Shown piece by piece: positions 22,001-63,985 of a DNA stretch of 64,000 bases; position 1 is the first letter of the stretch, and each line of letters begins with the position of its first letter. The stretch lies in the NCBI GenBank assembly GCA_021845505.1, contig JAJZVU010000011.1, positions 1 to 64,000 on the forward strand, read 5' to 3'. This stretch comes from Pseudomonadota bacterium. GTDB taxonomy: Bacteria; Pseudomonadota; Gammaproteobacteria; Burkholderiales; Burkholderiaceae_C. The position numbers were made by a program, and so were the translations under genes. A model generated the notes under the pieces. The model ran no database searches. It was given only the letters and a program-made list of their open reading frames with translations, and had not been told where the DNA came from.

Positions 22001-22848
22001 GACGTGACCAGGCTGATCGAGGGATTCGCGGAAGCTTCGAGAGCGATGCGCTGCGGGCCGCTGTAGATCACCAGGTCGTCGTCTCGCGCCAGCCCGACCA
22101 GGCTCATCGAGGCCTCGCGCGCGACCCGCACCGCCAGCGCGGTCGGCGCGGACACCGCGACCAGCAGCGGCACCCCCGCCTGCGCGGCCTTCTGCACCAT
22201 TTCGACACTGGCGCGGCTGGTCACCAGCAGATAGCCCTGCGATGCGTCGAGCGCGCCGCGCGCAAGCGCGCCGATGACCTTGTCCAGCGCGTTGTGGCGC
22301 CCGACATCCTCGCGCAACAGGCGCACCTGGCCGTCCGGCGAGCACCAGGCTGCCGCGTGCACGGCCCCGGTGATGCGGTTGAGCCTCTGCAGAGCGCGCA
22401 GCTGGCGCAGCGACGCCGCCACGGCGGACGAGCCGACCATCCAGCCGGTCCTCTCCGGCAGGCGGCGCAACGGCCGCAGCGCCTGCTCCAGGCTGTCGGT
22501 GCCGCACAGCCCGCAGCCGGTGCGCCCGGCCAGGTTGCGGCGGCGCTGGCGCAAGGCCTCGAAGCAGCGGGTGGCCACCTGCAGCTGCAGCTCGATCCCC
22601 AGCGGCTGCCGCACGGCTTCGCAGTCGTACACCTGCTCCGGCTGGTCGACGATGCCCTCGCTCAGGCTGAAGCCCAGCGCGAAGTCCTCCAGGTCGGCGG
22701 GGGTGGCGAGCATCACCGCATGCGACACGCCGTTGTACTGCAAGGCCACAGCGACCTCCTCGGCCACCCAGTCCTCGGCCTGCTGCGCCTGGCCGGCACG
22801 CCAGCGCAGCACCTGCAGCCTGCGCGCCCCGGACTCGTCGGCACTCAT
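21997..22848 (-). CDS. fdhD: Formate dehydrogenase accessory sulfurtransferase FdhD
   Basis: The 283-residue protein (FdsC in some operons) transfers sulfur from cysteine desulfurase to the bis-MGD cofactor, which makes the formate dehydrogenase active. The catalytic CxxC is visible in GRTGCGLCGTDS. Other family marks are SEGIVDQPEQVYDCE, REDVGRHNALDKVIG and VTSRASVEMVQKAA. AGGAG precedes the ATG at 22848 at good distance; a longer frame to 22932 is not supported. It lies between fdsA (25-nt gap) and fdsD (4-base overlap), so it is clearly part of the fds operon. Confidence 0.95.
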   Translation of the reverse strand: MSADESGARRLQVLRWRAGQAQQAEDWVAEEVAVALQYNGVSHAVMLATPADLEDFALGFSLSEGIVDQPEQVYDCEAVRQPLGIELQLQVATRCFEALRQRRRNLAGRTGCGLCGTDSLEQALRPLRRLPERTGWMVGSSAVAASLRQLRALQRLNRITGAVHAAAWCSPDGQVRLLREDVGRHNALDKVIGALARGALDASQGYLLVTSRASVEMVQKAAQAGVPLLVAVSAPTALAVRVAREASMSLVGLARDDDLVIYSGPQRIALEASANPSISLVTS

Positions 22849-22873
22849 CGATGCGCTCCTGCTCCCGCACGGG

Positions 22874-25807: not shown

Positions 25808-25862
25808 GGCTGGGTTCTCCGGTTCCGATGGGACGCGGGCGATGCGCGCTCGCGCCCCGCAT

Positions 25863-27431
25863 TCAGGCGGCCGCCGCGCCGGCGGGGTCGAGCCCGAAAT
25901 CCTGGGGATAGTGATCGAGTGCCGAAAGCACCGGGTACGGGGTCATCCCCCCCATCGCGCACAGGCTGCCGTGCACCATGGTGTCGCACAGGTCGCGCAG
26001 CAGGTGCACCTGCTGCGCGCGCTGCGCGGCGTCGGCGGCGCCGGTGATGCGGTCGATGACTTCGACCCCGCGGGTCGAGCCGATGCGACACGGGGTGCAC
26101 TTGCCGCAGGACTCGATGGCGCAGAACTCCATCGCATAGCGCGCCAGCGCGGCCATGTCGGCGCTGTCGTCGTGGGCGACGATGCCGCCATGGCCCAGCA
26201 CCCCGCCGAACGCGGCGTAGGCCTCGTAGTCCAGCGGCACGTCCCAGCGCGACTCCGGGATGTACGTGCCCAGCGGCCCGCCGACCTGCACCGCCTTGAT
26301 CGGCCGCCCGCTGGCGCTGCCGCCGCCGAAATCGAACAGCAAGTCGCGCAGGCTGGCGCCGAAGGCCAGCTCGACCAGCCCCGGGCGCTTGACGTTGCCC
26401 GCCAGTTGCAGCGGCAAGGTGCCGCGCGAGCGGCCGACGCCGTAGTCGCGATAGAAGGCGGCGCCGCGAGCGAGGATCAGCGGCACCGAAGCGAAGCTGA
26501 TGACGTTGTTGATCACCGTCGGCTGCCCGAACAGCCCGGAGACCGCCGGCAGCGGAGGCTTGGCGCGAACCACCCCGCGCTTGCCCTCCAGGCTGTCGAG
26601 CATCGCGGTCTCCTCGCCGCACACGTACGAGCCCGCGCCCAGCCGCGCCTCGATGTCGAAGCCGCGCCCCGAGCCCAGGATGTCCGGGCCGAGGAAGCCG
26701 GCGTGGCGCGCGCTGGCCAGGGCCTGCTGCATCACCGCCATCGCGTCGGGGTATTCGGAGCGTATGTACACGTAGCCCCGCGTGGCTCCGCTGGCCAGCG
26801 CGGCGATGGTCATGCCCTCGATGAGCATGAAGGGATCGCCCTCCATCACCATGCGGTCGGAGTAGGTGCCGGAATCGCCTTCGTCGGCGTTGCACACCAC
26901 GTACTTCTGCGGCGACGGGGTGTTGAGCACGGTCCGCCATTTGATGGCGGTCGGGAAGGCCGCGCCGCCGCGTCCGCGCAGGCCCGACTCCATCACCTGT
27001 TCGACGATCTGCTGCGGCTGCAGGGCCAGCGCGGCGCGCAGCCCGGACCAGCCTTCGTGCGCCTGGTAGTCGGCCAGCGAAAGCGGATCGGTGATTCCCA
27101 TGCGTGCGAAACACAAGCGCTGCTGGCGCGCCAGATAGTCGATCGACTCGGTCGGTCCCTGGCACAGCGCATGCCCGCCGCCCTGCAGCAAGCCGGAGTC
27201 GAGCAGGCCCGGCACGTCGGCCGGCTGCACCGGCCCGTAGGCCACTCGCCCGTCGGCGGTGGCGACCTCGACCATCGGCTCGAGCCAGTACAGGCCGCGC
27301 GAACCGTTGCGCACCAGGTCGATCCCCAGACCGCGGCGGGCGCATTCGTCGCGCAGAGCCTGCGCCACCGCGTCGGCACCCAGCGCGCGCGCCGCGCTGT
27401 CGCGCGGCACGAAAACCGTCACCGCGTTCAT
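25863..27431 (-). CDS. fdsB: NAD-dependent formate dehydrogenase beta subunit (NuoEF-like, FMN)
   Basis: The 522-residue diaphorase subunit carries FMN and one [4Fe-4S] cluster and reduces NAD+. It has an N-terminal thioredoxin-like part, then the NuoF core: the NADH/FMN-binding GLRGRGGAAFPTAIKW, NADEGDSGTYSDR and YVCGEETAMLDSLEG. The cluster motif is ESCGKCTPCRIG with a later Cys in GSLCAMGGM. The ATG at 27431 overlaps the fdsG stop by four bases, giving coupled translation; the frame remains open upstream only through fdsG. The gap to fdsA is 55 nt. This is the electron exit of the FdsGBA complex, supplying NADH from formate for CO2 fixation and growth. Confidence 0.97.
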   Translation of the reverse strand: MNAVTVFVPRDSAARALGADAVAQALRDECARRGLGIDLVRNGSRGLYWLEPMVEVATADGRVAYGPVQPADVPGLLDSGLLQGGGHALCQGPTESIDYLARQQRLCFARMGITDPLSLADYQAHEGWSGLRAALALQPQQIVEQVMESGLRGRGGAAFPTAIKWRTVLNTPSPQKYVVCNADEGDSGTYSDRMVMEGDPFMLIEGMTIAALASGATRGYVYIRSEYPDAMAVMQQALASARHAGFLGPDILGSGRGFDIEARLGAGSYVCGEETAMLDSLEGKRGVVRAKPPLPAVSGLFGQPTVINNVISFASVPLILARGAAFYRDYGVGRSRGTLPLQLAGNVKRPGLVELAFGASLRDLLFDFGGGSASGRPIKAVQVGGPLGTYIPESRWDVPLDYEAYAAFGGVLGHGGIVAHDDSADMAALARYAMEFCAIESCGKCTPCRIGSTRGVEVIDRITGAADAAQRAQQVHLLRDLCDTMVHGSLCAMGGMTPYPVLSALDHYPQDFGLDPAGAAAA

Positions 27432-27931
27432 CGGGTCACCTCCGGCAACGAATCGACCAGTGAATCGAAGCGCTGCGGGCTCATGCGAGCGTGCAGCGTG
27501 CCGTCGACCAGCATCGCCGGAGACGCCGCGCACAGCCCCAGGCAATACACCGGCTCGACGTCGAAGCGGCCGTCGGCGCTGCGGCAGCGATGCCCGGCGT
27601 CGCCGGCGCAGCCGGTGCGCTGCAGCGCGTGGCGGTACAGCGACTCGGCGCCCATCGCCTGGCAGCTCTCGGCTCGGCACACCTGCACGACATGCGGCGC
27701 CGGCGCCTCGGTGCGGAAGTGGTGGTAGTAGCTGATCACCCCGTGCACCTCGGCGTGCGACAGGTTCAGTCCGCCGGCGATCCGCGGGACCACCTGCGGC
27801 GGGATGTAGCCGATGGTGTCCTGGAGCTGGTGCAGGATCGGCAGCAGCGCGCCGGGCTGGTCGGCCCAGCGCGCCAGCGCCTGCGACACCACCTCGTCGA
27901 AGGTGGCACGGACTTGCTCTGGGTCGCGCAT
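27428..27931 (-). CDS. fdsG: NAD-dependent formate dehydrogenase gamma subunit (NuoE-like)
   Basis: The 167-residue subunit has the thioredoxin-like [2Fe-2S] fold of NuoE. The four cluster ligands lie in CRAESC and, about 35 residues later, CLGLC. The helical N terminus contains LLPILHQLQDTIGYIPPQ, typical of the family, and VHGVISYYHHF. GGAG precedes the ATG at 27931; the open frame to 28003 is not needed. It is the first gene of fdsGBA-fdhD-fdsD and is divergent from the FdsR-like regulator, with 172 nt between that should hold the operator. Confidence 0.95.
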   Translation of the reverse strand: MRDPEQVRATFDEVVSQALARWADQPGALLPILHQLQDTIGYIPPQVVPRIAGGLNLSHAEVHGVISYYHHFRTEAPAPHVVQVCRAESCQAMGAESLYRHALQRTGCAGDAGHRCRSADGRFDVEPVYCLGLCAASPAMLVDGTLHARMSPQRFDSLVDSLPEVTR

Positions 27932-28041
27932 GGTGTCTCCGTGCAGGGTGTACCGCCGGGCCGCGTCAGCGAGCGCGCCGGCCTGCCCGGCGGCGCACGC
28001 CATGCAACCCTACCTGGTTCACTTTAGGATGCCGCAGGGGC

Positions 28042-28092
28042 TTGCGCAATATGCTTTGGTCGGCGCATGCCATAAGAAGCCTGGCTCATAAG
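28042..28092. promoter_or_regulatory. fdsG / fdsR intergenic regulatory elements
   Basis: Two CATAAG hexamers lie 16 bp apart (28071 and 28087) and a TTGCGCAA palindrome lies at 28042-28049. They sit between the divergent fds operon and its regulator gene. Hexamer spacing of about one and a half helical turns fits a dimeric regulator, but binding is only inferred. Confidence 0.4.
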
Positions 28093-28103
28093 GCAAAACC
28101 CCT

Positions 28104-29246
28104 ATGTTTGAAGTGTCGATCGAACCCCGCTGGTCGCTGCGCCTTCCTACCGGGGAGGCGCTGGCCGGGCGCACGATGGCGCTGTTGCTGGCGGTTGCCG
28201 AACAGGGCAGCTTGTTACGCGCCTGCGCCGCGGTGGGCATTTCCTATCGCCATGGCTGGACGCTGATCCGCGAGGGCGAGGCGCTGCTGGGAATCCCGTT
28301 GCTGCTGATGGAGCGCGGCAAGGGCTCGCGCCTGAGCCCGCTGGCCGAGACCCTGGTATGGGCCGATCGCCGCATCGCCGCGCGGCTGTCGCCGACGCTG
28401 GACACCCTGGCTTCCGAACTCGAGGCCGAGATCGGTCGCGTGCAGCGCGAACACGATCGGCTGCTGCGCATCCGCGCCAGCCACGGCTTCGCGGTCGAGA
28501 CCCTGCACCAGTGGCTCAACCGCGCCGGGGTGCTCAACGAACTGCGCTATTGCAGCAGCAGCGACGCGGTGGCCGCGCTGGCGCTGGGCAATTGCGACCT
28601 GGCCGGCTTCCACGTCCCCGGCGGAGAGTTCGAGCGCGAGGTGCTGGATCACTACCGCGCGTGGCTGCAGCCCGCCAAGCAGCGGGTCATCGGGCTGGCC
28701 ACCCGCCGCGTAGGGTTGATCGTCGCCCGCGGCGATCCGAAGAAGGTCTTCGGCATCGACGACCTGGCGCGAGGCGACCTGCGCTTCATCAACCGCCAGC
28801 CCGGCTCGGGAACCCGCCTGCTGCTCGACCTGTTGCTGCGCAAGGCCGGCATCCAGCCCGGCCAGGTCAACGGCTACGAGCAGTGCGAACTGACCCACGC
28901 CGCGGTGGCGGCCTACGTGGCCAGCGGCATGGCCGACGTCGGGCTGGGAGTGGAGACCCCGGCGCGGCGCTTCAACCTCGATTTCGTGCCCCTGCAGACC
29001 GAGAGGTACTTCCTGCTGTGCGACCAGAGGCGTCTGGGCGACCCGCTGCTCGGGCAGATGCTGCACACCCTGCGCAGCCCGCAGTTCCACGCCAGCATCG
29101 ACCAGCTCCCCGGCTACCAGGCCGGACACTGCGGCCAGGTCTTCGAGCTCGACCAGGCCTTCGCCGGCCTGCTCGGGCGCGGCGTGCCGCGTGGCGGCGC
29201 GAAGCCCAGGCCACGCGGCCGACGCGAGTCCACCGGCGCGGGATGA
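28104..29246 (+). CDS. fdsR: FdsR-like transcriptional regulator (ModE-type HTH plus periplasmic-binding-like domain)
   Basis: The 380-residue protein joins an N-terminal winged helix like that of ModE (LLLAVAEQGSLLRACAAVGISYRHGWTLI, about 25-60) to a C-terminal substrate-binding-protein-like domain (about 120-340) with SSDAVAALALGNCDLAGFHVPGG and the RQPGSGTRLLLDLLL segment. This architecture is that of FdsR-type regulators beside fds operons and of related molybdate- or formate-sensing repressors. It is read divergently from fdsG. AAGG lies before the ATG at reasonable spacing. Probable role: control of fdsGBA-fdhD-fdsD in response to formate and/or molybdate; which ligand applies cannot be told from sequence. 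Confidence 0.88.
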   Translation: MFEVSIEPRWSLRLPTGEALAGRTMALLLAVAEQGSLLRACAAVGISYRHGWTLIREGEALLGIPLLLMERGKGSRLSPLAETLVWADRRIAARLSPTLDTLASELEAEIGRVQREHDRLLRIRASHGFAVETLHQWLNRAGVLNELRYCSSSDAVAALALGNCDLAGFHVPGGEFEREVLDHYRAWLQPAKQRVIGLATRRVGLIVARGDPKKVFGIDDLARGDLRFINRQPGSGTRLLLDLLLRKAGIQPGQVNGYEQCELTHAAVAAYVASGMADVGLGVETPARRFNLDFVPLQTERYFLLCDQRRLGDPLLGQMLHTLRSPQFHASIDQLPGYQAGHCGQVFELDQAFAGLLGRGVPRGGAKPRPRGRRESTGAG

Positions 29247-40947: not shown

Positions 40948-42990
40948 ATGACATCGGAGGTCCGCGCCGCAAGGGACGCACATACCGACAGGATCCGCAG
41001 CCACGCCGGCGCGCCGCCCGCGGCCGGCCCCGGCGCCGAGGCACCCGCGTTTCTCGTCGCCTCGTGGCGCCGCTGCATCGAAGACTACGGGCTGCAACCC
41101 CAGCAACCCTTCGCCGCGGCGGCGGTGGCCGGCGATCGACTCGAACATGCGCGCGACGCCAGCCAGCGACTGCTGCGCATCGCGCGCCCGGAGATGGCCA
41201 GCCTGCACTCCCAGATCGGCGGCAGCCACGGCGCCTTGCTGCTGGCCGATGCCGACGGGGTGCTGCTGGACAGGGTCTGCGATCCGCTGCAACAGGACCT
41301 GCTCGACAGCCTGGGGCTGGCACCCGGCTTCCTGTGCGACGAGCGACACGCGGGCACCGCCGGCCCCGGCACCTGCCTGCACGAGGGCCGCGCGCTCACC
41401 GTCTACCGCGACGAGCATTTCTTCTGGGACCTGGCGGGGCTGAGCTGCTCGGCGGCGCCGATCCGCGCTCCCGACGGCAGCATGCTGGGCGTGCTCGACG
41501 CCTGCAGCGTCCAATGCCGCGACAGCCGGGAAAGCCAGCGTCACACCACGCTGCTGGTGGGCATGTCGGCGCGGCTGATCGAGCGGGTGTACTTCACCGG
41601 CAGCTTCCAGCAGCACTGGCTGGTGCGGCTGCACGAGCGCGCCGAACTGGTCGGAACGATGCGCGACGGCGTGCTGGCGATCGACGGCGACTGCCGCATA
41701 TGCGGCGCCGACGCCCAGGCGGCTGCGTTGCTGGGCTCGCGCGGCGCGGCGGACCTGGTCGGACGCGACATCGGCGAATTCCTCGATCTCAGTCGCGCCG
41801 GCTTCTGCTCGCGCGCCACCCGGATGCCCTGCCGCGTCTGGCCGGTGCAGGGGCAGCGAGCCGGCAGCCGCTACTTCCTTTCGGTGCGCCCGCCGCAGCG
41901 CACCGCGCTGCCGGCGGGCGGCCGCGGCGACGACCCCGAGTCGCCGGCCTGCGCCAGCCTGCGCGCGCTGGCCGCCGACGCGCCGGCCGGGGAAGACCGG
42001 CCGGCGGCTGCGATCGACCCGGTGATGGCGCACAACCTGTGGTGCGCCGAACAGATCATGGACAAGGACATCAACATCCTGCTGCAGGGCGCCACCGGAA
42101 CCGGCAAGGGCACGCTGGCCAAGGACATCCACCTGCGCAGCGCGCGCCGCGGCAAGCCCTTCATCGCGATGTGCTGCGCGGCGATCCCCGAGACCCTGGC
42201 GGAGAGCGAACTCTTCGGCTACGAGTCGGGCGCCTTCACCGGGGCCCGCTCCGGCGGCATGCGGGGCAAGATCGTGGCTTCGGACGGCGGAACGCTGTTC
42301 CTGGACGAAATCGGCGACATGCCGCTGAGCCTGCAGGCGCGGCTGCTGCACGTGCTGGAAGAACGCGAGGTCACGCCGCTGGGAAGCACGCGGGCGATTC
42401 CAGTCGACCTGCATGTGATCAGCGCCAGCAACCACGACCTGCCGGATCTGATCGAACGCGGACTGTTTCGCCAGGACCTGTATTACCGGCTCAACGGCAT
42501 CACGCTGAGCCTGCCGCCGCTGCGCGAGCGCGAGGACCTGCGGGCATTGGTCGTCGAGGCCTGCCGCAGCGAAGGCGGCGCGCGCCCGCTGCGCATCGAG
42601 CCGGACGCGCTGGCCTGCCTGCTGCAATACGCCTGGCCCGGCAACATGCGCGAGCTGCGCAATGTCGTGCGCACCGCCAACGCGCTGTCGCCGGACGGCG
42701 TGCTGCGCGTCGAGCACCTGCCGGCCGCGCTGCGCGGCCCGGGCGGCCCCGGCGGCCCCAGTGGCCGGACGGCCGCGCAGCGCGCGGGCCTGCGCGCTGC
42801 GTCAGCGCAGGTGGCGCCGGCGGCCGAGTCCGGTGCACGCAGCGCACCGCACGGCTACCACGACATGACCGCGCTGCTGCAGCACCATCGCTGGAACATC
42901 AGCCACGCGGCAGCCGACCTGGGTGTCAGCCGCAACACCTTGTACCGCCACATGCACCGGCTGGGCATCCGGACCACGCGCGAGCGCTGA
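40948..42990 (+). CDS. AcoR-type sigma54-dependent transcriptional activator
   Basis: The 680-residue protein is an enhancer-binding protein without a receiver domain. The N-terminal third (about 55-230) resembles the GAF-like sensory region of AcoR-type activators (FLVASWRRCIEDYGL at the start, GPGTCLHEGRALTVYRDEHF in the middle, as in AcoR). A PAS-like segment follows (about 255-330). The AAA+ domain has Walker A GATGTGKG (about 381), the GAFTGA loop (about 428) and LFLDEIGDMP, and the Fis-type HTH ends the protein (HRWNISHAAADLGVSRNTLYRHM). GGAG precedes the ATG at 40948. It is convergent with the DsrE/ModA-like operon whose promoter is sigma54-type, so it probably controls that operon. 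Confidence 0.93.
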   Translation: MTSEVRAARDAHTDRIRSHAGAPPAAGPGAEAPAFLVASWRRCIEDYGLQPQQPFAAAAVAGDRLEHARDASQRLLRIARPEMASLHSQIGGSHGALLLADADGVLLDRVCDPLQQDLLDSLGLAPGFLCDERHAGTAGPGTCLHEGRALTVYRDEHFFWDLAGLSCSAAPIRAPDGSMLGVLDACSVQCRDSRESQRHTTLLVGMSARLIERVYFTGSFQQHWLVRLHERAELVGTMRDGVLAIDGDCRICGADAQAAALLGSRGAADLVGRDIGEFLDLSRAGFCSRATRMPCRVWPVQGQRAGSRYFLSVRPPQRTALPAGGRGDDPESPACASLRALAADAPAGEDRPAAAIDPVMAHNLWCAEQIMDKDINILLQGATGTGKGTLAKDIHLRSARRGKPFIAMCCAAIPETLAESELFGYESGAFTGARSGGMRGKIVASDGGTLFLDEIGDMPLSLQARLLHVLEEREVTPLGSTRAIPVDLHVISASNHDLPDLIERGLFRQDLYYRLNGITLSLPPLREREDLRALVVEACRSEGGARPLRIEPDALACLLQYAWPGNMRELRNVVRTANALSPDGVLRVEHLPAALRGPGGPGGPSGRTAAQRAGLRAASAQVAPAAESGARSAPHGYHDMTALLQHHRWNISHAAADLGVSRNTLYRHMHRLGIRTTRER

Positions 42991-43010
42991 GCGACACCGG
43001 TACGCATCGC

Positions 43011-43042
43011 CGCGGCGCGGTGCCGCAGGGCACCGCGCCGCG
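43011..43042. terminator. 14-bp hairpin between convergent genes
   Basis: CGCGGCGCGGTGCC and GGCACCGCGCCGCG pair perfectly around GCAG. It lies between the AcoR-like stop and the stop of the ModA-like gene and could serve both directions. There is no T-tract. Confidence 0.5.
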
Positions 43043-43047
43043 CGACC

Positions 43048-43887
43048 TCACTTGGCGGTCTGCAGTCCCCACTGCCTCCATACGCCGAGCGCGTACTTGG
43101 ATCGGTAGAAGGCGGCGAGCTCGTCGTTGTCGGCCTTGCGGCGCGGGCCGACGAAGTGGAACTTCACGCTGTTCAGCACGCTGACCGTGAAGGCCACTCT
43201 CGCGTAGCTTCCCGACGCCAGCGCAACGCTGCGCAGGCACAGCCCCTGGGTCTTGTACTGGGTGGTCTGCGACGCGTACATCATGCCCAGGCGCTTGCCG
43301 CCATGCTTGAGCGCGTCGGCCACCTGGTCGGTCCCGAGCACCCGCGCCATGCCCGCCTCGAGCTTCGGGTCCGACCGGGTCAGGCCATCGAACAGGTGCA
43401 TCGACTGCCCGCCCAGGGGGCTGAGGTCCTCGTTGGGCATGACCACCTGGCCCTGCATCGAGCGCAGGTAGGCCGCATCGAGCTTGCCCGCCAGCGCCTG
43501 TGCGTCGCCGCAGCGCGCGACCGCGGCGATGTGGTCGTAGGCCACGGTGTGGTACAGGTTGACAAAACCGCCGTCGGTCAGCTTGTTCTGGTAGCCATCC
43601 CCGGCAAGGATCAGGATGTCCGACGGCACGCCCTGGACGGTCCCGGCATACAGCACTCCGGATGGGGCGAACTCATAGGTGATGTGGAGGTTGGGATGCT
43701 GCCTTTCGAATTCGTAACCGATTTCCTGCAACGCGCCCCTGAGCGCCTCGGGCGCCCAGACGCGCAGCGTCTTGTTGGCGGATCCTGCAGGCGCCTGGGC
43801 ATCGGCTTGCGCGCCGAACAGGCTCGCGAGTACCACCGCGGAACATGCCACCTTGGCTGCGGTGGCGAACAATTGGGTCGGCTTCAT
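43048..43887 (-). CDS. Orphan ModA-like periplasmic binding protein
   Basis: The 279-residue protein has a signal peptide (ending QADAQA) and the class II periplasmic-binding fold resembling ModA: LRVWAPEALRGALQEIGYEFERQHPNLHITYEFAPSG, a VLYAGTVQGVPSDILILA segment, and a C-terminal half with DQVADALKHGGKRLGMMY. No ABC permease or ATPase is nearby. It is second in a two-gene operon with the DsrE-like protein, so it may deliver a ligand to a sensor or enzyme rather than to a transporter. AGGGAT lies before the ATG. Molybdate, tungstate or a sulfur oxyanion are candidate ligands, by family only. Confidence 0.75.
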   Translation of the reverse strand: MKPTQLFATAAKVACSAVVLASLFGAQADAQAPAGSANKTLRVWAPEALRGALQEIGYEFERQHPNLHITYEFAPSGVLYAGTVQGVPSDILILAGDGYQNKLTDGGFVNLYHTVAYDHIAAVARCGDAQALAGKLDAAYLRSMQGQVVMPNEDLSPLGGQSMHLFDGLTRSDPKLEAGMARVLGTDQVADALKHGGKRLGMMYASQTTQYKTQGLCLRSVALASGSYARVAFTVSVLNSVKFHFVGPRRKADNDELAAFYRSKYALGVWRQWGLQTAK

Positions 43888-43999
43888 CTTCTATCCCTGT
43901 TGAATGGGGTTCCGAAAGAGTTGACTGCGTCGCGCAGGCGCACCGGCGGCTGCCAGGCTGGCACCACGCGCGCTGCCCGGTCGGGAAGTCCTGCGGCGC

Positions 44000-44503
44000 T
44001 CAGGGCATGTTGTAGTAAACGTAGCCTTTGGCTTCGTACTTGAAGATCGACGTCACCCCGCTGGGTCGCGCCACACCGACAAAGGGAAAGAACTGGCTCT
44101 TCTTGACGTGGAAGGCCAGCATCGCGGCGTGGCAGGCCAGCATGCGCACGCCCATTTCGTGCAGGCGCTCGAGCAGCTTGGCCGCCTGCGGATTCTTCTT
44201 CTGCACGAAGAAGTAGATCGCCGGGCCCGGCGCGATGAGCACGACCTTGGTGGGAATTCCGTGCCCCATCAGGGAAACCAGGTTGTGGGTGATGACCAGC
44301 GGGACAGCGGGCCACAACGCCGGATTGCTCGGCACCTTGAGCACCGCGCGCACCGGATGGTGCTTGTTGAAGTAGGGATACGCGTAGTCATTTCCCCCCA
44401 TCGCGTTCGCCCCGCCGCCGGCGGTCGACGCCCGGGCGGCGGGCAGTGCGACGCCGATGACACCCAGCGTCAAGGCCAGGGCGCGAACCCATGCATAGCT
44501 CAT
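44000..44503 (-). CDS. Secreted DsrE-like protein
   Basis: A 167-residue protein with a signal peptide (MSYAWVRALALTLGVIGVAL, cleaved near ARA). The mature domain resembles the DsrE/DsrF-like family: VRAVLKVPSNPALWPAVPLVITHN, TKVVLIAPGPAIYFF and the LHEMGVRMLACHAAML segment whose Cys is at the position of the active-site Cys in many DsrE-like folds. Periplasmic location is unusual for sulfur-relay DsrE proteins. GAGGAG precedes the ATG. It is the first gene of the operon, read from the sigma54 promoter at 44605-44620, with the ModA-like gene after a 112-nt gap. Ligand or partner is unknown. Confidence 0.75.
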   Translation of the reverse strand: MSYAWVRALALTLGVIGVALPAARASTAGGGANAMGGNDYAYPYFNKHHPVRAVLKVPSNPALWPAVPLVITHNLVSLMGHGIPTKVVLIAPGPAIYFFVQKKNPQAAKLLERLHEMGVRMLACHAAMLAFHVKKSQFFPFVGVARPSGVTSIFKYEAKGYVYYNMP

Positions 44504-44550
44504 GTTCTCTCCTCGTATTGGTATGGCCGGTAGGACCGATCGCGTAGCGT

Positions 44551-44585
44551 CCCTGCCTGCGCGAACCCGGTTCGCGCAGGCAGGG
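44551..44585 (-). other. 16-bp perfect hairpin in the operon leader
   Basis: CCCTGCCTGCGCGAAC pairs with GTTCGCGCAGGCAGGG around CCG. If the start is at about 44594, it occupies about +9 to +43 of the DsrE/ModA-like operon leader. It could stabilise the 5' end, block translation, or serve as a palindromic operator. Confidence 0.7.
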
Positions 44586-44604
44586 GCGTCGGCCGCAAGC
44601 TGCT

Positions 44605-44620
44605 AGCAAGCCACGTGCCG
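44605..44620 (-). promoter_or_regulatory. Sigma54 promoter of the DsrE/ModA-like operon
   Basis: Minus-strand CGGCACGTGGCTTGCT matches YTGGCACG-N4-TTGCW except for the first T, with GG and GC ten bases apart. Predicted start is about 44594, about 90 nt before the first ATG (44503). Confidence 0.85.
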
Positions 44621-44659
44621 GCGATCGCAACCGGATGCAACACCAGGAAAAGCCCATAT

Positions 44660-44672
44660 ACTCAAATACTTA
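44660..44672 (+). promoter_or_regulatory. IHF-like site
   Basis: ACTCAA-ATAC-TTA matches WATCAA-N4-TTR with one mismatch, in the only AT-rich patch of this region. It is centred about 72 nt upstream of the predicted start, between promoter and enhancer, as expected for IHF-bent sigma54 promoters. Confidence 0.6.
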
Positions 44673-44730
44673 TGTATGGAGCCGATGCGCCCGGCGGGCT
44701 GGGCGCCCGGGCTGCGCTGCGCCAGCGGGT

Positions 44731-44763
44731 GACACTGTGTCGCGCGCCATGGGACAAACTGTC
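44731..44763. promoter_or_regulatory. Tandem enhancer palindromes (GACA-N3-TGTC)x2
   Basis: GACACTGTGTC (44731-44741) and GACAAACTGTC (44753-44763) share GACA-N3-TGTC and are 22 bp apart centre to centre, exactly two helical turns. They are about 142 and 164 nt upstream of the predicted sigma54 start and are the likely binding site of the AcoR-like activator. Confidence 0.75.
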
Positions 44764-44831
44764 ACTCCCGGCCCGTGGCGACCGGGCGGCCCGCTTCACC
44801 AGGCCGGCTGGCGCCGGACCGGATCCAGCCC

Positions 44832-45581
44832 TCAGAGATGGCGGAACGGCTCGAGGGTTCGATGGCGCAGCGCGTAGCGCAGCTTCTTGAACCAGATGCT
44901 CAGGTACATCCTCTTCCACAGCCTGAGGCGATTGCGCAGAGGCTCCGCCGGCGCCGGGTGTTCGACCGGGATGTACCAGCCGTTGCGGTTGAGCCGGCGC
45001 ACCAGCTTGTAGCCCCGGCTGCGCAGCAGCCGGTGCTTGGCCAGGTACAGGTGCTTGTCCTCCAGCAGGATCAGGCGCGGGCGGTAGCGCGCGAAGTCCA
45101 GGCCCTGCAGCACCTCGAGTTCGGCCCCCTCGACGTCGATGGACAGCAGGTCGATCCCGGCGGCGCCGGCCTGCTCGAGCACCGTGGTCAGCGTGGCCGT
45201 GCGCACCGTGATGCGCTGGAACCGCCGGTAGTTGTGCTCGTCGATATTGGCGCGCAGGCTGGCGTGCCCGGTCACCGGCGACTCGCCCTGCAGCGGGATC
45301 AGCAGGGTCATTTCCCGGCGGTCGTCGTTTTCCACGCAGGCGCACTCGACGACCGTCGACCGCTGGCGCAGCCGGCGCGCGCTTTGCGCGAGATCGGGTA
45401 TGGGCTCGATCAGCACGCCGTGCCAGCCGATCTGCTCCAGGTGCCAGGTCTGCGATTCCGGCGAGGTCGGTTCGTTGGCGCCGACCTCGACGAAAAACCC
45501 GCTGTGCCTGTCGCCGAAGTACTGCCGTATGGCCCGCTTTTCCTGCTCTTCGTCGCGCAGCAGCTCAGCCTGATCTTTCAT
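44832..45581 (-). CDS. FkbM-family methyltransferase
   Basis: The 249-residue protein has the class I SAM-dependent fold of the FkbM family: FFVEVGANEPTSPESQTWHLE as the SAM-binding motif I, VLIEPIPDLAQSARR with motif II Glu, and LLSIDVEGAELEVLQGLDFARYRP, the FkbM hallmark, followed by a basic C terminus that may contact a membrane or sugar substrate. Such enzymes methylate sugars of surface glycans. The ATG at 45581 was chosen; GTG at 45602 would add seven residues. It is downstream of dabA on the same strand but 84 nt apart. No glycan cluster is adjacent. Confidence 0.85.
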   Translation of the reverse strand: MKDQAELLRDEEQEKRAIRQYFGDRHSGFFVEVGANEPTSPESQTWHLEQIGWHGVLIEPIPDLAQSARRLRQRSTVVECACVENDDRREMTLLIPLQGESPVTGHASLRANIDEHNYRRFQRITVRTATLTTVLEQAGAAGIDLLSIDVEGAELEVLQGLDFARYRPRLILLEDKHLYLAKHRLLRSRGYKLVRRLNRNGWYIPVEHPAPAEPLRNRLRLWKRMYLSIWFKKLRYALRHRTLEPFRHL

Positions 45582-45665
45582 GCTCCCGGTGTCCTCGGTC
45601 ACTGCGCGGGGGGATTCCGCGACACCGATGCTAGTGCGCCCCCGGCGCCCGCGGCCACGACCGGC

Positions 45666-48179
45666 TCAGGCGTCGAGCCACCGCCGCGGGCCGGCGCGGC
45701 GGGCGATGCCCCCCCGCGCATCGATGCGCATCAGGTGCAGCCAGCCGTTGTCGGCAAGCCGGGCCAGCAGCGGCTGGCGCTCGAGCACGCCTTCGATCGC
45801 CTGCTCCGCCGCCTCGATCAGCACCGTCAGGCGCAAGGGCTCGTGGATCCAGCGCGACCCGTCGTGCAGCGACTGCAACGCCAGGCCGATGCGCAGGTCC
45901 CCGCCGTTGCCCTCGAACACCCCGATGTCGCCGCCCACCACGTTGTGCAGCAGCTTGTTGCCGCTGCCCATGCGCTGCGGGTCGCAGGTGGAAGCGTGGT
46001 ATTGCCAGTTGATCCAGTGCGCCACCAGCAGCGGCGCGGTCATCAGCGCCTCCAGCCGGCTGGCGTCGGCGTCGTCCGCCGGGTCGTAGTCGTGCAGGAA
46101 GCAGCGCCCTTCGAGCACCGCGCCGACGCTGCGCCAGCGCGGCGCCAGGATCAACGCCGCGTTGCCCGCCAGGCCCCATTCGGGGCGCGTCTGCGCGCCA
46201 TCGTTGGCGCGCTCGCGCAGTTGCCGCAACAGTCGCGCAGCCGGCACCCTGGGGTCGAGGCCCAGCCGCGGCGCGCGTTCGCGCCGCACCTGGTCGCAGG
46301 CCTGCTCGAGCGCGCCGTGCAGGCGCTGCCAGCGCTCGCGCGCGTGCTGGGGCAGCAGGTCGAGGTCGAAGGCCTGCACTTCGTCGGTGGTCGTGTTGTG
46401 CAGCGCGGCGACGAACACCGTCTGCCGCGGGATGTCGATTCCCTCCTCGACCAGCCCGGCGCGCACGCGGGGCTGGTTGAGCAGCCGCGCCAGCGCGCGC
46501 GCGTTGACCTCGCCGCTGTTGCCGCAACACGCGCCGCAGTCCAGCGCCGCGGCCTGCGGGTTGTTGCTGCTCTGGCTGGCGTGCGCGACCAGCAGCACCA
46601 GCGGCGCCAGGTCGCGCTGCAGGCCCATCGCGCGCAGCACCCCGGCCGCCAGCGCGACCTCGGCGGCCGGCTCCAGGCCCGACAAGCGCGGCCGGCACAG
46701 CGGACGGTAGCGCGCAGGCAGCCCGGCCAGGTCGTCGCTGACGCGGGATCGCGTCGACGGCAGCAGCCAGCGCGCCAGCGCCGGCAGGTGGGCCGCTCCG
46801 GCGGCCTCGACATAGCTGAACGCGGCCGCCGGCCAGCGACTCGCGCCGCCGCGTTGCTGCGCCCGCGCGAGTCGGCGTCGGCGCGCCGCCGCGGCGCGCT
46901 CGGTGTCCGGCGCCGAATCCCCGTCGGCCGTCCGCACGACTTCGTCGCGCAGTTCCAGCGCGGGCGCCAGCAGACCGGGCAACTGCGGCCTGCGCGCCTC
47001 GGTGGCCAGCGGGGTGTAGGCGGCGGGCAGCCCGAAGAACCCCGCGAAGCCCAGGGTCCGCACCGCCGGCCAGACGGCCTCGATGGCGCGCCGCAACGGC
47101 TCGCTGCGCACATCGATGCAGAACACCGCCTGCACCTCGGCGTGCGGCGGCGCCGGCCGCGCCGCGCCTTCCAGCCGGCTGACGAGCTCTCGCTGGTAGC
47201 TCAGGTCCAGCGCGAGCTGCCAGATTGCATCGGGCCACAGCGCGTGCTCGGCCTGCCGCAGCGACTCGGCCGCCCCGGTCCACGCACCCTGCACCGCTGC
47301 GAAGGCCGAGCGGGCCGCGGCATCGTCCTTGCACTCCAGCAGGATCGCCCCCCAGGCCATGCGGATCGCCAGCAGGTCGCGCAGGTGGCTGTCCTCGCGC
47401 CCTTCGAGCCGCGCCTGCCAGCGCAGGTAGGCGCACCACGACGCCCACCCCTGCACGGTCAGCAGCACGGCCTCCAGGTAGTCGGCCCAGTGCCGCTGCG
47501 GCAGCCCCAGGCGCTGCAGCACCCATCGCTGGGCCTGCTCGCGTGTCGGCGGCAACGCCGCCAGGCCGCGCCGCAACCCGGGCAGGCCCATCAGCAGCCC
47601 GATGCCATGGTCATGGCCGATGCTGTCGCGCCAGAAGGCGTACAGCCCCTGGCCGCGCTCGGGCTGCCAGTCCGCCTGCCGGCGATCGAAGTAGGCGGCG
47701 CAGGCCTGGCTGACCTGATGGGTGATGGCCTGGCGCCACGACAAGCGTTGCTGGCGCCGCGGGTCGTCATCCAGCGCGTCGATCAGCAGCGGCAGGCGCG
47801 GCAGCCCTGGCGCCTCGCCCAAGGCCTCGACGCAGCGCGCTTCGCTCCAGCCGCCTTCGCGCGCGCCCGGCGTCGCGTGCAGCGCGGCCTGCAGCGCGGC
47901 CGGCGCGATGCGCCCCTGCTCCCAGGCGCTGCGCACAAGCGGGCGCGGAGCGAACACCTGGATTCCGGCCAGCACGGCCATGCGGGCGGCCACTTCGCGC
48001 AGCGGGCGCCCGACGCGTTGCCAGTGGGGATTGACTGCGATCGCACGGTCCAGCGGCCACGCCGGCGCGATCTGCGCGCAGGCCTGCTCGCAGGCCGCGT
48101 CGATGCTCGCCAGCGAGTCGGTCGTGCGGCCCTCGGCTCGCGCCGCGGCCGCCACGCCACCACCTGCCGGCGCGTTCAT
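45666..48179 (-). CDS. dabA: DabA: inorganic-carbon pump carbonic-anhydrase-like subunit (DUF2309)
   Basis: The 837-residue protein matches DabA (formerly DUF2309/UPF0753), the cytoplasmic zinc subunit of the DAB energy-coupled CO2-to-bicarbonate pump described in Halothiobacillus. The zinc and active-site pattern of beta-carbonic-anhydrase type is present: Cys354 and Asp356 in VFCIDVRSE, His533 in LVAHASQSSNN and Cys548 in DCGACCG. These align with Cys351, Asp353, His524 and Cys539 of DabA2. Its ATG overlaps the dabB stop in an ATGA arrangement, so translation is coupled. The pump raises internal bicarbonate for RubisCO or carboxylases; no cbb genes are in the window. It is followed by the FkbM gene. 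Confidence 0.95.
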   Translation of the reverse strand: MNAPAGGGVAAAARAEGRTTDSLASIDAACEQACAQIAPAWPLDRAIAVNPHWQRVGRPLREVAARMAVLAGIQVFAPRPLVRSAWEQGRIAPAALQAALHATPGAREGGWSEARCVEALGEAPGLPRLPLLIDALDDDPRRQQRLSWRQAITHQVSQACAAYFDRRQADWQPERGQGLYAFWRDSIGHDHGIGLLMGLPGLRRGLAALPPTREQAQRWVLQRLGLPQRHWADYLEAVLLTVQGWASWCAYLRWQARLEGREDSHLRDLLAIRMAWGAILLECKDDAAARSAFAAVQGAWTGAAESLRQAEHALWPDAIWQLALDLSYQRELVSRLEGAARPAPPHAEVQAVFCIDVRSEPLRRAIEAVWPAVRTLGFAGFFGLPAAYTPLATEARRPQLPGLLAPALELRDEVVRTADGDSAPDTERAAAARRRRLARAQQRGGASRWPAAAFSYVEAAGAAHLPALARWLLPSTRSRVSDDLAGLPARYRPLCRPRLSGLEPAAEVALAAGVLRAMGLQRDLAPLVLLVAHASQSSNNPQAAALDCGACCGNSGEVNARALARLLNQPRVRAGLVEEGIDIPRQTVFVAALHNTTTDEVQAFDLDLLPQHARERWQRLHGALEQACDQVRRERAPRLGLDPRVPAARLLRQLRERANDGAQTRPEWGLAGNAALILAPRWRSVGAVLEGRCFLHDYDPADDADASRLEALMTAPLLVAHWINWQYHASTCDPQRMGSGNKLLHNVVGGDIGVFEGNGGDLRIGLALQSLHDGSRWIHEPLRLTVLIEAAEQAIEGVLERQPLLARLADNGWLHLMRIDARGGIARRAGPRRWLDA

Positions 48180-49768
48180 CGGGCCCCCCAGGCGACGCTG
48201 CGCGCGGCCGCCCGCGGCTCGCGCCTGGCGCCGGCAGGAACCCAGCTCGCCGGCCACATCCGCAGCGCCACGCGGGTGTACGCCTCGTCGAGGTAGAAAC
48301 CGGCATAGCTCCAGCGCCGGCATGCCCACAGCAGGCGCGGGCGCAAGTGCAGCGCGGCCAGCGCCAGGTAGCCCAGCGCCATGCCGGCCAGCGCCACCAC
48401 GCCGGCAGCCGGCCACGGCGCGTCGTGCACCCCCAGCGCCAGCCGATGCATCAGCTGCGCGGCGAGCGTCAGCGCCAGCAGCCATGCGAGCCCGGCCGCG
48501 GCGCGGCTCGCGATCGCGCCGCGCCGCCCGGCCGCCCGCGCGGGAAGCCACAGCAGCGGCGCCCAGGCCAGCGCGACCACCGCGATCCACCACCACGGCC
48601 AGGCCTCGCCGCCGCAGCCGCGCTGCACCGAAGCCAGCACCGCAGCGGCCAGCCACGGCGCAGCCAGCACGCTGCACGCGCTGACCGGCAGCGCTTCGTG
48701 CAGCGCCTGCAGCCCGGACTCGCGCACCGCGCCGGGTGCCGACAGGAAGGCCTGTGCCTTGTAGAGCGAATGACCGATCAGGTGCAGCGCCGCCAGTTGG
48801 TACAGCCCGAGCCCGCACTCCATCACCATGAAGCCCATCTGCGCCACCGTGGACCATGCCAGCCGCACCTTGATGCTCACCCGTGTCAGGCTGACCATCC
48901 CGGCCAGCGTCGCGCTGGCCAGCCCGCCGGCGACCAGCAGCCAGCGCGCCGCCGTCGACGTGGCCAGCAGCGGCGCGAACACGATGAGCACGTAGCCCCC
49001 CAGGTTGACCACCCCGGCGTGCAGCAACGCCGACACCGGCGTGGGTGCCTCCATGACCTGGATCAGCCAGCCGTGCACCGGCAGCAGCGCGGTGCGCAGC
49101 AGCACGGCCAGCACCAGCAGCAGCGCGCCGGCCTGCAGCGCGGCCGACGCCGGCGCGTGCTGCAGCCGCTGTGCCAGCGCGGGCAGCGAAGCGCTTCCCG
49201 ACTGCCACCAGACCAGCCCGGCAGCGCCCAGCAGCAGCAGGTCGGCCAGCCTGTCGGCGATGCGCTTCTTGTGCGCCGCCAGCAGCGCGAAGGGCCTCTC
49301 GCGATAAAAGCACAACAGACCATGCAGCGCCGCCGCGACACCGGCCCAGGCGGCGATGAGCACCAGCCAGTTGCCGGCCAGCAGCAGCCACTGCACACCG
49401 GCCAGCACGCCGGCCAGCCCCGCCGCGTAGCGGCGCTGCCCCGGTTCGCCCTGCAGGTAGCGCGACGAAAAGCTGCCGATCACCGTGCCCAGGAACTGCA
49501 CCAGCAGCGCGAGCCAGGCGCCCAGCGGCCACAGCGCCAGGCCACCGGCCAGCGGCGCGGCGGGCGCACCGTGCAGCCAGCGAGGGTGCAGCCACTGCCA
49601 GGCCAGCGCCGCGGCGGCGCCGAGCAGCGCGGCAGCGCACGAGGCCAGCAGCCAGCGCCAGGCCAGCGGGTCGCCGGCGCGGCGTGCCAGCCGGATCGAC
49701 AGCGCGCAACAGGACATGAGGACGGCAGGGGCCAGCGCGGCCGCGGCAAGCAGCTGAGGTATGGGCAT
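48176..49768 (-). CDS. dabB: DabB: proton-conducting membrane subunit of the DAB carbon pump
   Basis: The 530-residue protein resembles NuoL/MrpA proton-channel subunits and is the membrane partner of DabA. About 13-14 membrane spans are predicted. Conserved elements are LLPVHGWLIQVMEAPTPVSALLHAGVVNLGGY, typical of complex I antiporter-like subunits (Lys/Glu/His channel), the SSRYLQGEPGQRR loop after TM3, and a late AHKKRIADRLADLLLL. Its stop overlaps the dabA start. It is divergent from a LysR-type regulator across a 97-nt gap with palindromic elements, the normal layout of DAB operons. Function: couple the proton gradient to vectorial CO2 hydration. Confidence 0.92.
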   Translation of the reverse strand: MPIPQLLAAAALAPAVLMSCCALSIRLARRAGDPLAWRWLLASCAAALLGAAAALAWQWLHPRWLHGAPAAPLAGGLALWPLGAWLALLVQFLGTVIGSFSSRYLQGEPGQRRYAAGLAGVLAGVQWLLLAGNWLVLIAAWAGVAAALHGLLCFYRERPFALLAAHKKRIADRLADLLLLGAAGLVWWQSGSASLPALAQRLQHAPASAALQAGALLLVLAVLLRTALLPVHGWLIQVMEAPTPVSALLHAGVVNLGGYVLIVFAPLLATSTAARWLLVAGGLASATLAGMVSLTRVSIKVRLAWSTVAQMGFMVMECGLGLYQLAALHLIGHSLYKAQAFLSAPGAVRESGLQALHEALPVSACSVLAAPWLAAAVLASVQRGCGGEAWPWWWIAVVALAWAPLLWLPARAAGRRGAIASRAAAGLAWLLALTLAAQLMHRLALGVHDAPWPAAGVVALAGMALGYLALAALHLRPRLLWACRRWSYAGFYLDEAYTRVALRMWPASWVPAGARREPRAAARSVAWGAR

Positions 49769-49817
49769 TCCGGATACGGGCGGGTGGTCTTGCCGATATG
49801 GTGCCCGCGGGCCGTCA

Positions 49818-49863
49818 TTCTGTAAAATTCATTGATATGAACAGTTCGTTCTGTAAAAACGAA
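49818..49863. promoter_or_regulatory. Operator region between dabB and the LysR gene
   Basis: TTCTGTAAAA occurs at 49818 and 49849, 31 bp apart. A dyad TTCGTT-N7-AACGAA spans 49845-49863, and TTCAT-TGAT-ATGAA lies between them. This fits LysR-type (T-N11-A) binding sites. It is the only AT-rich patch in the area. Confidence 0.6.
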
Positions 49864-49865
49864 TC

Positions 49866-50804
49866 ATGAACTTGGACCGCCTGAACTTCCGCCACCTGCT
49901 GTACTTCTGGCGTGTCGCCGGCACCGGGCATCTCACGCGTGCCGCGCAGGAACTGCACGTCTCGCAGTCGGCGCTTTCGACCCAGATCCGCCAGCTCGAG
50001 GAGCGACTGGGCGAGGCGCTGTTCGAGCGCGACGGCCGACGGCTGGTGCTCACCGCGACAGGCCAGATCGTGCAGTCGTACGCCGAGAACATCTTCGGCC
50101 TCGGGCAGGAACTGCTGGGCCGCCTCGACGGCCAGGGCCAGGGCGCGTTCAGGCTGCGCGTCGGCAGCGTGGCCACGCTGTCGCGCAACTACCAGGAGAA
50201 CTGGATCCGCCCGCTGCTGGCCGACCCGGCGGTGACCTTGAGCCTGGAGTCGGGGATGCTCGGCGAACTGCTCGAGCGCCTGCTGCAGCATCGGCTGGAC
50301 GTGGTGCTTTCCAACGAGGCGGTCGCCGCGGAGTCCGAGCGACCGTTCCATTGCCGCTTCCTCGGCAGCCAGGCGATCTCGCTGGTCGGGCCCGCGGCCA
50401 CCTGGAAGCGCCGCCGGCTGCGCGTCCCCGAGGACCTGCACGACAAGGACCTGGCGCTGCCCGGTCCGCGCCACGCGCTGCGCGGGCAGTTCGACGCGCT
50501 GTGCATGGCCGCCGGAGTCAGGCCCCGCTGTCGCGCCGAGGTCGACGACATGGCGATGCTGCGGCTGATCGCCCGCGACAGCGGCTGGCTGACCGTGCTG
50601 CCCGAGGTGGTGGTGCAGGACGAACTGCGCACCGGCAGCCTGGTCAAGGTCGGCCGTTCCGAACAACTGCAGGAACATTTCTACGCCATCACGACCAGCC
50701 ACCGGCATCGGCTCGAGCGCCTGGAAGGCCTGCTCGAGGGCTCTTCGCGCGCGCTGCGGCCGACGCGCGGCCGACAGGCCCTACACTCTGCGCCCAGCGC
50801 CTGA
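49866..50804 (+). CDS. LysR-family regulator divergent from dabBA
   Basis: The 312-residue protein has a LysR N-terminal HTH (HLLYFWRVAGTGHLTRAAQELHVSQSALSTQIRQLEERLGEALFER, summarised as residues 9-52) and a periplasmic-binding-like effector domain. The Ser-Gln-Ser-Ala-Leu-Ser recognition helix and FERDGRRLVLTATG wing are typical. It resembles the NhaR/CbbR-like regulators found with DAB operons. It is read away from dabB across palindromic DNA, so control of dabBA, and autoregulation, is likely. Effector is unknown; bicarbonate- or redox-linked metabolites are guesses. Confidence 0.9.
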   Translation: MNLDRLNFRHLLYFWRVAGTGHLTRAAQELHVSQSALSTQIRQLEERLGEALFERDGRRLVLTATGQIVQSYAENIFGLGQELLGRLDGQGQGAFRLRVGSVATLSRNYQENWIRPLLADPAVTLSLESGMLGELLERLLQHRLDVVLSNEAVAAESERPFHCRFLGSQAISLVGPAATWKRRRLRVPEDLHDKDLALPGPRHALRGQFDALCMAAGVRPRCRAEVDDMAMLRLIARDSGWLTVLPEVVVQDELRTGSLVKVGRSEQLQEHFYAITTSHRHRLERLEGLLEGSSRALRPTRGRQALHSAPSA

Positions 50805-63286: not shown

Positions 63287-63985
63287 TCAGGCCGGCTCCA
63301 GCCCGTGCTCGCGCTTGATCGCGGCGAATTGCGGCGAGGCCAGGCAGTCGATCGCCGAGCGAGCGGCCTGCGGCTGGCGCGACGCGCCGCAGATGCCGGC
63401 GCTGAAGCGGGTCACGATCTCGCAGCCCGGCGGCAGTTCGCCCAGCACCCGCACGCCGGCCAGCCCGACGAGTTCGCTCATCTGCTGGAATCCCAGCGAC
63501 GCCTGGCCCTGCGCCAGCAAGCGCCCGACCGGCACCCCGGCGGGCGCCTGCACCAGCCGCTCGCGCACCGCATCGAACACCCCCCAGCGGCGCAACAGCG
63601 CCAGCACCGCGGTGCCGCTGGGCCCGGTCGAATGGCCGATCGCCGACGCGCCGAGCACCGCCCGGCGCAGCGCGTCCTCGCTGCCGACATCGACCGCCGG
63701 CGCGCCTGCGGGAACCGCCACCACGGTCTTCGACACCACCAGGTCGACGCGGCTGCCGGCCAGCACGCTGCCGCCGGCGATCAACTGGTCGATCGCGTCG
63801 GACGCGAGCACCACCAGATCGAAGGACTCGCCGTCGCGCACGCGGCGCGCCGCGTCGACCCCGCCCACCGACTCGAAGTGCAGGTCCACGCCCCGCTCGC
63901 GCAGGCAGGCCTGCGCCAGTTGCGCGAGCAATGCGCGCGTGGCCATCGACGAAATGCCCTGCAGGGCCGGGGCTCGGGTGTTCAT
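63287..63985 (-). CDS. Leaderless ModA-like substrate-binding protein
   Basis: The 232-residue protein has a ModA/PBP-like fold starting MNTRAPALQGISSMATRALLAQLAQACLRERGVDLHFESVGG and continuing with AVDVGSEDALRRAVLGASAIGHSTGPSG and LLAQGQASLGFQQMSELVGLAGVRVLGELP. There is no signal peptide, so it should be cytoplasmic. GGAG precedes the ATG at 63985. It is transcribed towards the sensor kinase gene, with 237 nt between. It may bind molybdate, tungstate or a related anion and take part in regulation. It is a second orphan ModA-like protein, after the one at 43048. Confidence 0.8.
   Translation of the reverse strand: MNTRAPALQGISSMATRALLAQLAQACLRERGVDLHFESVGGVDAARRVRDGESFDLVVLASDAIDQLIAGGSVLAGSRVDLVVSKTVVAVPAGAPAVDVGSEDALRRAVLGASAIGHSTGPSGTAVLALLRRWGVFDAVRERLVQAPAGVPVGRLLAQGQASLGFQQMSELVGLAGVRVLGELPPGCEIVTRFSAGICGASRQPQAARSAIDCLASPQFAAIKREHGLEPA

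Follow-up and report, generated by a model that had tools for sequence, protein, structure and literature searches.

The locus described here lies in a 64,000-nucleotide stretch (the window) of contig JAJZVU010000011.1, assembly GCA_021845505.1, from a Pseudomonadota bacterium placed in Burkholderiaceae_C. It comprises a gene for a sigma-54-dependent activator and, facing it, a two-gene operon whose products, both exported, are a DsrE-like protein and a solute-binding protein (SBP) that resembles ModA. Six congeners have orthologues of this activator, each next to a gene for a XoxF-type pyrroloquinoline quinone (PQQ) methanol dehydrogenase, and the enhancer upstream of the operon matches the one at those xoxF loci. 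The locus is real and likely functional, with a xoxF-type sigma-54 activator/enhancer unit attached to a rare exported pair. Comparison of the loci points to a difference in target, likely a swap, for which we claim no direction. That the target of a methanol/alcohol-type sigma-54 activator was exchanged between xoxF and an exported accessory pair is, in our estimate, slightly better than an even bet.

A first-pass annotation of the window had named the operon with two exported products, an adjacent convergent activator lacking a receiver domain, a sigma-54 promoter, a site for integration host factor (IHF) and two palindromes. This anatomy is confirmed, element by element and position by position (Table 1); two hairpins and the resemblance of the palindromes to a xoxF enhancer come in addition to that annotation. 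The activator and the operon are convergent, the operon sitting inverted between the activator and its enhancer. A pattern-based scan of genome contigs with the DsrE-like protein, which reaches close relatives only, returned one further locus, L003, in a proteobacterial metagenome-assembled genome that appears to be the congener G686. L003 has all three genes in unchanged order, with 83, 79 and 92% identity. The pair had been expected to be conserved with the activator and the palindromes, and activator, palindromes, promoter and operon do occur as a set in each of the two genomes with the pair.

The activator (P0003) has the features of a bacterial enhancer-binding protein (bEBP). Its profile matches include PF00158 (199.5 bits), PF01590 GAF and PF02954 HTH_8, and the GAFTGA loop and a Walker A motif, GATGTGKGT, place its AAA+ domain in the bEBP class. 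The Fis-type helix-turn-helix (HTH) domain has a candidate upstream activating sequence (UAS) in the enhancer common to the orthologues. No receiver domain is present among the 25 of 28 matching families listed. The first-pass annotation had called the activator AcoR-type; the 25 of 30 NCBIfam matches listed are to other bEBP models, all below cut-off. A further in-frame ATG lies at 40870. A search of 60 genomes with the N-terminal 320 residues found relatives in 42 (E up to 1e-20). In eight genomes, all of the same genus and including the window genome (G000) and G686, a relative is at least 49% identical. The orthologues of the other six are 59–61% identical over the whole protein, with 75–82% identity in the HTH domain and 60–64% in the GAF domain.

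All six of these orthologues have a TIGR03075 PQQ methanol/ethanol dehydrogenase gene downstream within about 2 kb; an extra open reading frame (ORF) lies between in two of them, and the dehydrogenase gene of G678 is cut off by the contig end and scores below the TIGR03075 cut-off. Each of the six dehydrogenases carries the motif PHD-x-WD-[YF]-DG, which we take to be the lanthanide-type (XoxF) signature. Genes for a XoxJ-like SBP and a cytochrome c come next in the congener loci that were read further; one such SBP (L051) matches TIGR03870 and TIGR03871, both below their cut-offs. In a phylogenetic tree, the activators of the window and L003 group together (100/99) and, with the six xoxF-linked proteins, stand apart from five paralogues (100/100). 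By orthology and enhancer the window activator is of the xoxF-linked type, with no xoxF adjacent to it or detected in its genome. Among the titles and abstract openings listed in literature searches, none describes a sigma-54 activator of xoxF.

The candidate binding site of the activator consists of two GACA-N3-TGTC palindromes 22 bp apart, as first annotated. The tandem is not a chance occurrence: 20,000 rounds of dinucleotide shuffling of the upstream region never produced one. It is present at a single place in the 3.70-Mb window genome, and both palindromes are exact in L003 (locus L046 is the same stretch). The stretch 44738–44765 (TGTCGCGCGCCATGGGACAAACTGTCAC) matches the xoxF-type enhancer. 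In all six xoxF congeners, TGGAGCAAACTGTTCC stands 107–110 bp before the −12 element. The window site, TGGGACAAACTGTCAC, agrees with it at 12 of 16 positions, a score seen in 26 of 2,000 shuffled versions of the upstream region, and with the pqqA site of the congener G665 at 13 of 16, reached by 1 of 2,000. Spacing to the second box, 8 bp, is equal in the window and at the xoxF loci. All six xoxF loci fit a joint pattern, TGTY-N8-TGGRRCAAACTGTYMC, to which the window offers one exact match against 0 expected; because the pattern was drawn from these sites, the independent numbers are the shuffle counts and the equal spacing. The orientation of the enhancer relative to the activator gene is also kept (both on the + strand), xoxF lying beyond the enhancer in the congeners, where TGGCACGGAGGTTGC precedes the gene in four cases and TGGCATAGACGTTGC in two.

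Other occurrences of the pattern were surveyed in the same genomes. In G665 (L134, C97:12059–12074), a xoxF-type enhancer, TGGGACAAACTGTTCA, and a −24/−12 element precede pqqA (by eye), which suggests that PQQ synthesis in that genome may be under the same activator as xoxF. With up to one mismatch allowed, the idea of a wider regulon was rejected for the window genome, which has a single one-mismatch match (C38, of the CAAGCTGTTCC type) besides the exact site. The other seven genomes have ten one-mismatch matches, nine of this same type and the pqqA site. Nine of the ten CAAGCTGTTCC loci fall inside cytochrome-bd-like coding sequence (by eye); the tenth (L097) is at a contig end, outside called genes.

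The promoter had been called near-consensus. The −24/−12 element is indeed present and is conserved in L003, where its counterpart is AGGCACGTCGATTGC, but by itself it is at chance level: TGGCACG-N4-TTGCW at one mismatch has 2 matches in the window versus 0.95 expected. The match alone is weak, and it is the conservation in L003 that makes the promoter credible. The IHF-like pattern is likewise at chance frequency (3 in the window versus 2.3 expected), and the 30-bp stretches around the site are 83–97% identical to L003. Measured in 30-bp steps, identity to L003 is 80–97% between enhancer and promoter, 70–80% upstream of the enhancer and 53–80% in the 5′ untranslated region (UTR). A perfect hairpin predicted in the 5′ UTR shows no clear conservation in L003 and was for that reason set aside.

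Neither the window genome (99.5% complete) nor G686 (97% complete) has a TIGR03075 match over cut-off; marginal matches, far below it, have E values of 3.0e-5 and 2.5e-6, respectively. A pqqB match is also missing from both genomes, and pqqB scores over cut-off in five of the six xoxF congeners.

The first gene of the operon encodes a member of the DsrE/DsrF family, with a PF02635 score of 28.1 bits against a gathering cut-off of 22.7. Both operon products begin with a Sec-type signal peptide (signal peptides and signal-like N-termini were judged by eye throughout). Cys124 is the sole cysteine of the DsrE-like protein, and a cysteine is aligned with it in all 32 phmmer matches, from 35 DsrE-like loci given (three without a match), and in all 12 rows of a tblastn-based alignment, in which 11 of the given loci yielded rows. 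Most of these 12 rows have a signal-like N-terminus. Of 28 genomes of the genus, 24, its own among them, have a match to the protein at E up to 1e-4. The first-pass annotation had regarded an exported DsrE-like protein as unusual, a view that these counts do not bear out; export as a special feature of this locus was rejected because the type is common in the genus, with its conserved cysteine and signal-like N-termini. Exported DsrE/DsrF-like proteins of the genus and family resemble the one here in N-terminus, cysteine and the motifs P-[SA]-G and G-[YFW], but they are 28–37% identical, and no SBP gene is directly paired with them in eight loci read by eye. The operon also does not have the form of a DsrEFH sulfur relay, since the partner is an SBP gene and a signal peptide is present. 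A PDB sequence search with the DsrE-like protein found no match; a repeat gave two, at E 0.38 and 0.59, which are not meaningful. At L014, L015 and L020, exported DsrE-like genes come directly after mreC/rodA-like cell-shape genes, a recurrent arrangement (by eye).

The second gene encodes an SBP (P0002) that had been described as ModA-like without an ABC transporter. Like ModA, it belongs to SBP_bac_11 by profile (PF13531, 70.6 bits against a cut-off of 25), and no modB or modC gene is seen among its neighbors by eye. Assignment to ModA itself fails: TIGR01256 gives 48.6 bits against a cut-off of 62.5, and in an alignment with three permease-linked ModA proteins the first pocket serine is replaced by Ala48, with Ser76 and Tyr204 kept. 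We take these three to be positions of the ModA pocket, Ala48 occupying that of a molybdate-binding serine. A ModA/oxyanion reading was rejected on these grounds, and the proposed sensing of a sulfur or metal oxyanion is unsupported, the kin of the activator lying beside methanol dehydrogenase genes. The mature SBP has two cysteines, Cys126 and Cys217, both kept in L003. A PDB sequence search returned four matches, 4kd5 and 4rxl among them. Neither of the XoxJ/MxaJ models, TIGR03870 and TIGR03871, is among the six NCBIfam matches to the SBP at E up to 1. A second ModA-like protein is encoded at 63287–63985 (−), at the window edge, with a TIGR01256 score of 31.0 bits (below cut-off) and no obvious signal peptide.

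The SBP is much more narrowly distributed than its partner. Among the 28 genomes of the genus (E up to 1e-4) it was found in its own and G686, among 299 family genomes (E up to 1e-10) in its own alone, and among 369 class genomes (E up to 1e-6) in four, the three besides its own having ModA genes followed by a permease gene (by eye). At E up to 1e-5, the DsrE-like protein matches 7 of 299 family genomes, its own included. With 2 of 28 genomes for the SBP against 24 of 28 for the DsrE-like protein, the pair is rare and the exported DsrE type is not. The listings from a literature search include no paper on an exported DsrE-like protein paired with an orphan SBP, and passages on DsrE-like proteins in PMC13047784 mention no exported pair. 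Plasmid searches and a viral scan gave no match.

The two operon genes also differ from their surroundings in divergence. Between the window and L003, 80 of 215 four-fold sites differ in the operon genes (37%) versus 149 of 1,046 (14%) in the flanking activator, FkbM-like, dabB-like and LysR genes (Fisher p 1.4e-13). Ka/Ks values of 0.17 and 0.22 indicate that both structural genes are constrained (0.21–0.26 elsewhere). Raw identity falls after about 44420 and is back by about 43160, with a better-kept part (0.91–0.92) near 43400–43579; further dips occur in the intergenic region near 45560–45739 and in the C-terminal linker of the activator near 42680–42859. The simplest reading of the divergent 43160–44420 segment is a cassette that was probably replaced by recombination with a more distant allele, in which case further carriers, as yet unsampled, should exist.

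Table 1. Positions of the features of the locus within the window
Feature	Position	Strand	Remarks
sigma-54 activator ORF	40948–42990	+	GAF 75–212, PAS-like region, AAA+ 358–520 with GAFTGA, Fis-type HTH 641–671
13-bp hairpin, GC-rich	43012–43041	.	between convergent 3′ ends; terminator-like, without T run; identical in L003
exported SBP_bac_11 (ModA-like) gene	43048–43887	−	downstream gene of two-gene operon
exported DsrE-like gene	44000–44503	−	single Cys124; first gene of operon
perfect 16-bp hairpin, predicted 5′ UTR	44551–44585	−	whole 91-nt leader z −4.8
−24/−12 sigma-54 promoter, CGGCACGTGGCTTGCT	44605–44620	−	one mismatch from TGGCACG-N4-TTGCW
IHF-like site, ACTCAAATACTTA	44660–44672	+	one mismatch; conserved AT-rich stretch
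two-box enhancer	44731–44765	+	palindromes 44731–44741 (GACACTGTGTC) and 44753–44763 (GACAAACTGTC), centers 22 bp apart

These data allow us to propose a mechanism for the locus. The activator, as an orthologue of the regulators adjoining the XoxF-type cluster, would bind the two-box enhancer, and its GAF domain would sense a small molecule, which by its kin is probably an alcohol, an aldehyde or another C1-related signal. With DNA looping aided by IHF or bent DNA, the activator would open sigma-54 RNA polymerase at the −24/−12 element. Its target here would be the inverted two-gene operon, not xoxF. The DsrE-like protein, with its conserved cysteine, is likely a periplasmic persulfide or thiol carrier, to which the orphan binding protein, with its two conserved cysteines, may present a ligand or partner. 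Together they would constitute an accessory pair of periplasmic oxidation; a periplasmic thiol/sulfur carrier plus orphan binding protein is the assignment that we favor.

Several observations weigh against this proposal. The enhancer is inverted relative to the operon promoter, and its center lies 151 bp from the −12 element in the window and 152 bp in L003, versus 107–110 bp at xoxF. A site at 3833–3848 (+), TGGAGCGAACTGCTCA, matches the xoxF 16-mer at 13 of 16 positions, better than the 12 of 16 of the enhancer; these are the two places in the whole window with at least 12 of 16, and the 16-mer alone is therefore indecisive. The pqqA enhancer site occurs in one of the six congeners only, 210 bp from its −12 element. 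The congener G685 (89% complete) has xoxF yet no pqqB match. The DsrE/SBP pair was found in two genomes only. AlphaFold models of the two exported proteins, built from two-sequence alignments, have mean predicted local distance difference test (pLDDT) scores of 31 and 32, so no structure is usable and the roles of the proteins rest on their families and cysteines. Finally, by the tree the window activator may be either nested in the xoxF-linked group or sister to it, so that loss and non-gain of xoxF would both fit. A search for the activator at E up to 1e-50 in 399 family genomes (141 genera), with its own genome and five congeners in the sample and at most five candidates scored per genome, matched the window genome alone, a result with which either direction of the swap would be compatible.

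Other explanations can be set against the same evidence. The operon could be a sulfur-compound module in which the DsrE-like protein serves as a carrier of sulfane sulfur and the SBP brings in the compound that the activator senses, either a sulfur oxyanion or an organosulfur compound. The PF02635 score, the cysteine conserved in 32 of 32 matches and the lack of a detected XoxF to serve are all consistent with such a module, but no sox or dsr gene is recognized by eye beside the operon, and the kin of the activator adjoin xoxF rather than sulfur genes; we consider it unlikely. Capture of molybdate or another metal oxyanion, the earlier suggestion, draws on the weak ModA similarity (TIGR01256; 4kd5 and 4rxl) and on Ser76 and Tyr204, which align with ModA pocket residues. 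Given the missed cut-off, the serine replaced by Ala48, the lack of modB or modC beside the SBP and an activator whose kin are unrelated to molybdate, we find it very hard to credit.

The enhancer might instead be a relic of a lost xoxF locus without a present role, with the operon under another activator or a sigma-70 promoter. The spacing and orientation are unlike those of xoxF loci, and the −24/−12 element alone is at chance level. However, the DNA from enhancer to promoter is mostly better conserved in L003 than the 5′ UTR and the DNA upstream, and both palindromes are exact there, which makes a relic quite improbable. Orphan SBPs that act as sensor partners of a chemoreceptor or kinase exist, and the lack of an adjacent transporter gene would suit such a role here, with the DsrE-like protein an unrelated hitchhiker; the shared order and elevated divergence of the two genes in both genomes speak against this, and we give it very little weight.

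A more elaborate version of target replacement can be imagined, in which XoxF and PQQ synthesis were lost and the regulator then came to control a periplasmic module free of PQQ and lanthanides. The SBP and the DsrE-like thiol carrier would together detoxify or channel the ligand of the regulator by holding it on protein as a thiol adduct, an aldehyde or a methylated sulfur compound being examples of such a ligand, and the operon would circulate as a cassette open to exchange while enhancer and terminator stay fixed. We regard this version as a long shot. Target replacement as such would be a compact, testable case of regulatory rewiring, with the same activator family and enhancer serving different targets in close relatives. 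The comparison further suggests that this genus has a sigma-54 activator of xoxF, which in one genome would serve pqqA too, and the exported DsrE-like protein with its orphan SBP is a candidate for a new, though rare, periplasmic thiol-carrier arrangement.

Two other gene groups of the window may be mentioned. Positions 45631–50804 contain two DabA/DabB-looking genes, presumably DabAB (inorganic-carbon uptake), and a LysR gene on the opposite strand. Formate dehydrogenase-looking genes with FdhD and a ModE-like regulator, recognized by eye only, lie at 21997–29246.

The closest known systems are the xoxF-linked activators of the six congeners, which share the GAF/AAA+/HTH layout, GAFTGA, 59–61% identity, the enhancer core and the two-box spacing. 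There, activator, enhancer, promoter and xoxF all run in one direction (with the extra ORF in two), whereas here the operon is inverted and no xoxF is detected. BmoR of Thauera butanivorans, as described in PMC8899819, is a one-component sigma-54 activator that responds to alcohol and works through an upstream UAS and DNA looping. The present activator is likened to it by description, not by sequence: it too is a one-component sigma-54 activator with an upstream UAS and putative looping, and it may sense a small alcohol, but the target of BmoR is an alkane monooxygenase promoter. For the operon, the nearest parallel is with periplasmic accessory genes associated with quinoproteins. According to PMC12997753, these include PedG/XoxJ orphan SBPs, a SoxYZ-like carrier and a rhodanese, and Pseudomonas alcohol-oxidation clusters combine the orphan SBP PedG with SoxYZ-like and rhodanese proteins. 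Those proteins belong to other families, and the window genome has no quinoprotein alcohol dehydrogenase over cut-off; the common feature is an orphan exported SBP that accompanies exported proteins of sulfur-carrier type in the setting of an alcohol oxidation system. It is from the precedent of PedG with SoxYZ-like and rhodanese proteins that we infer an accessory-pair role for the two exported proteins, by analogy rather than homology.

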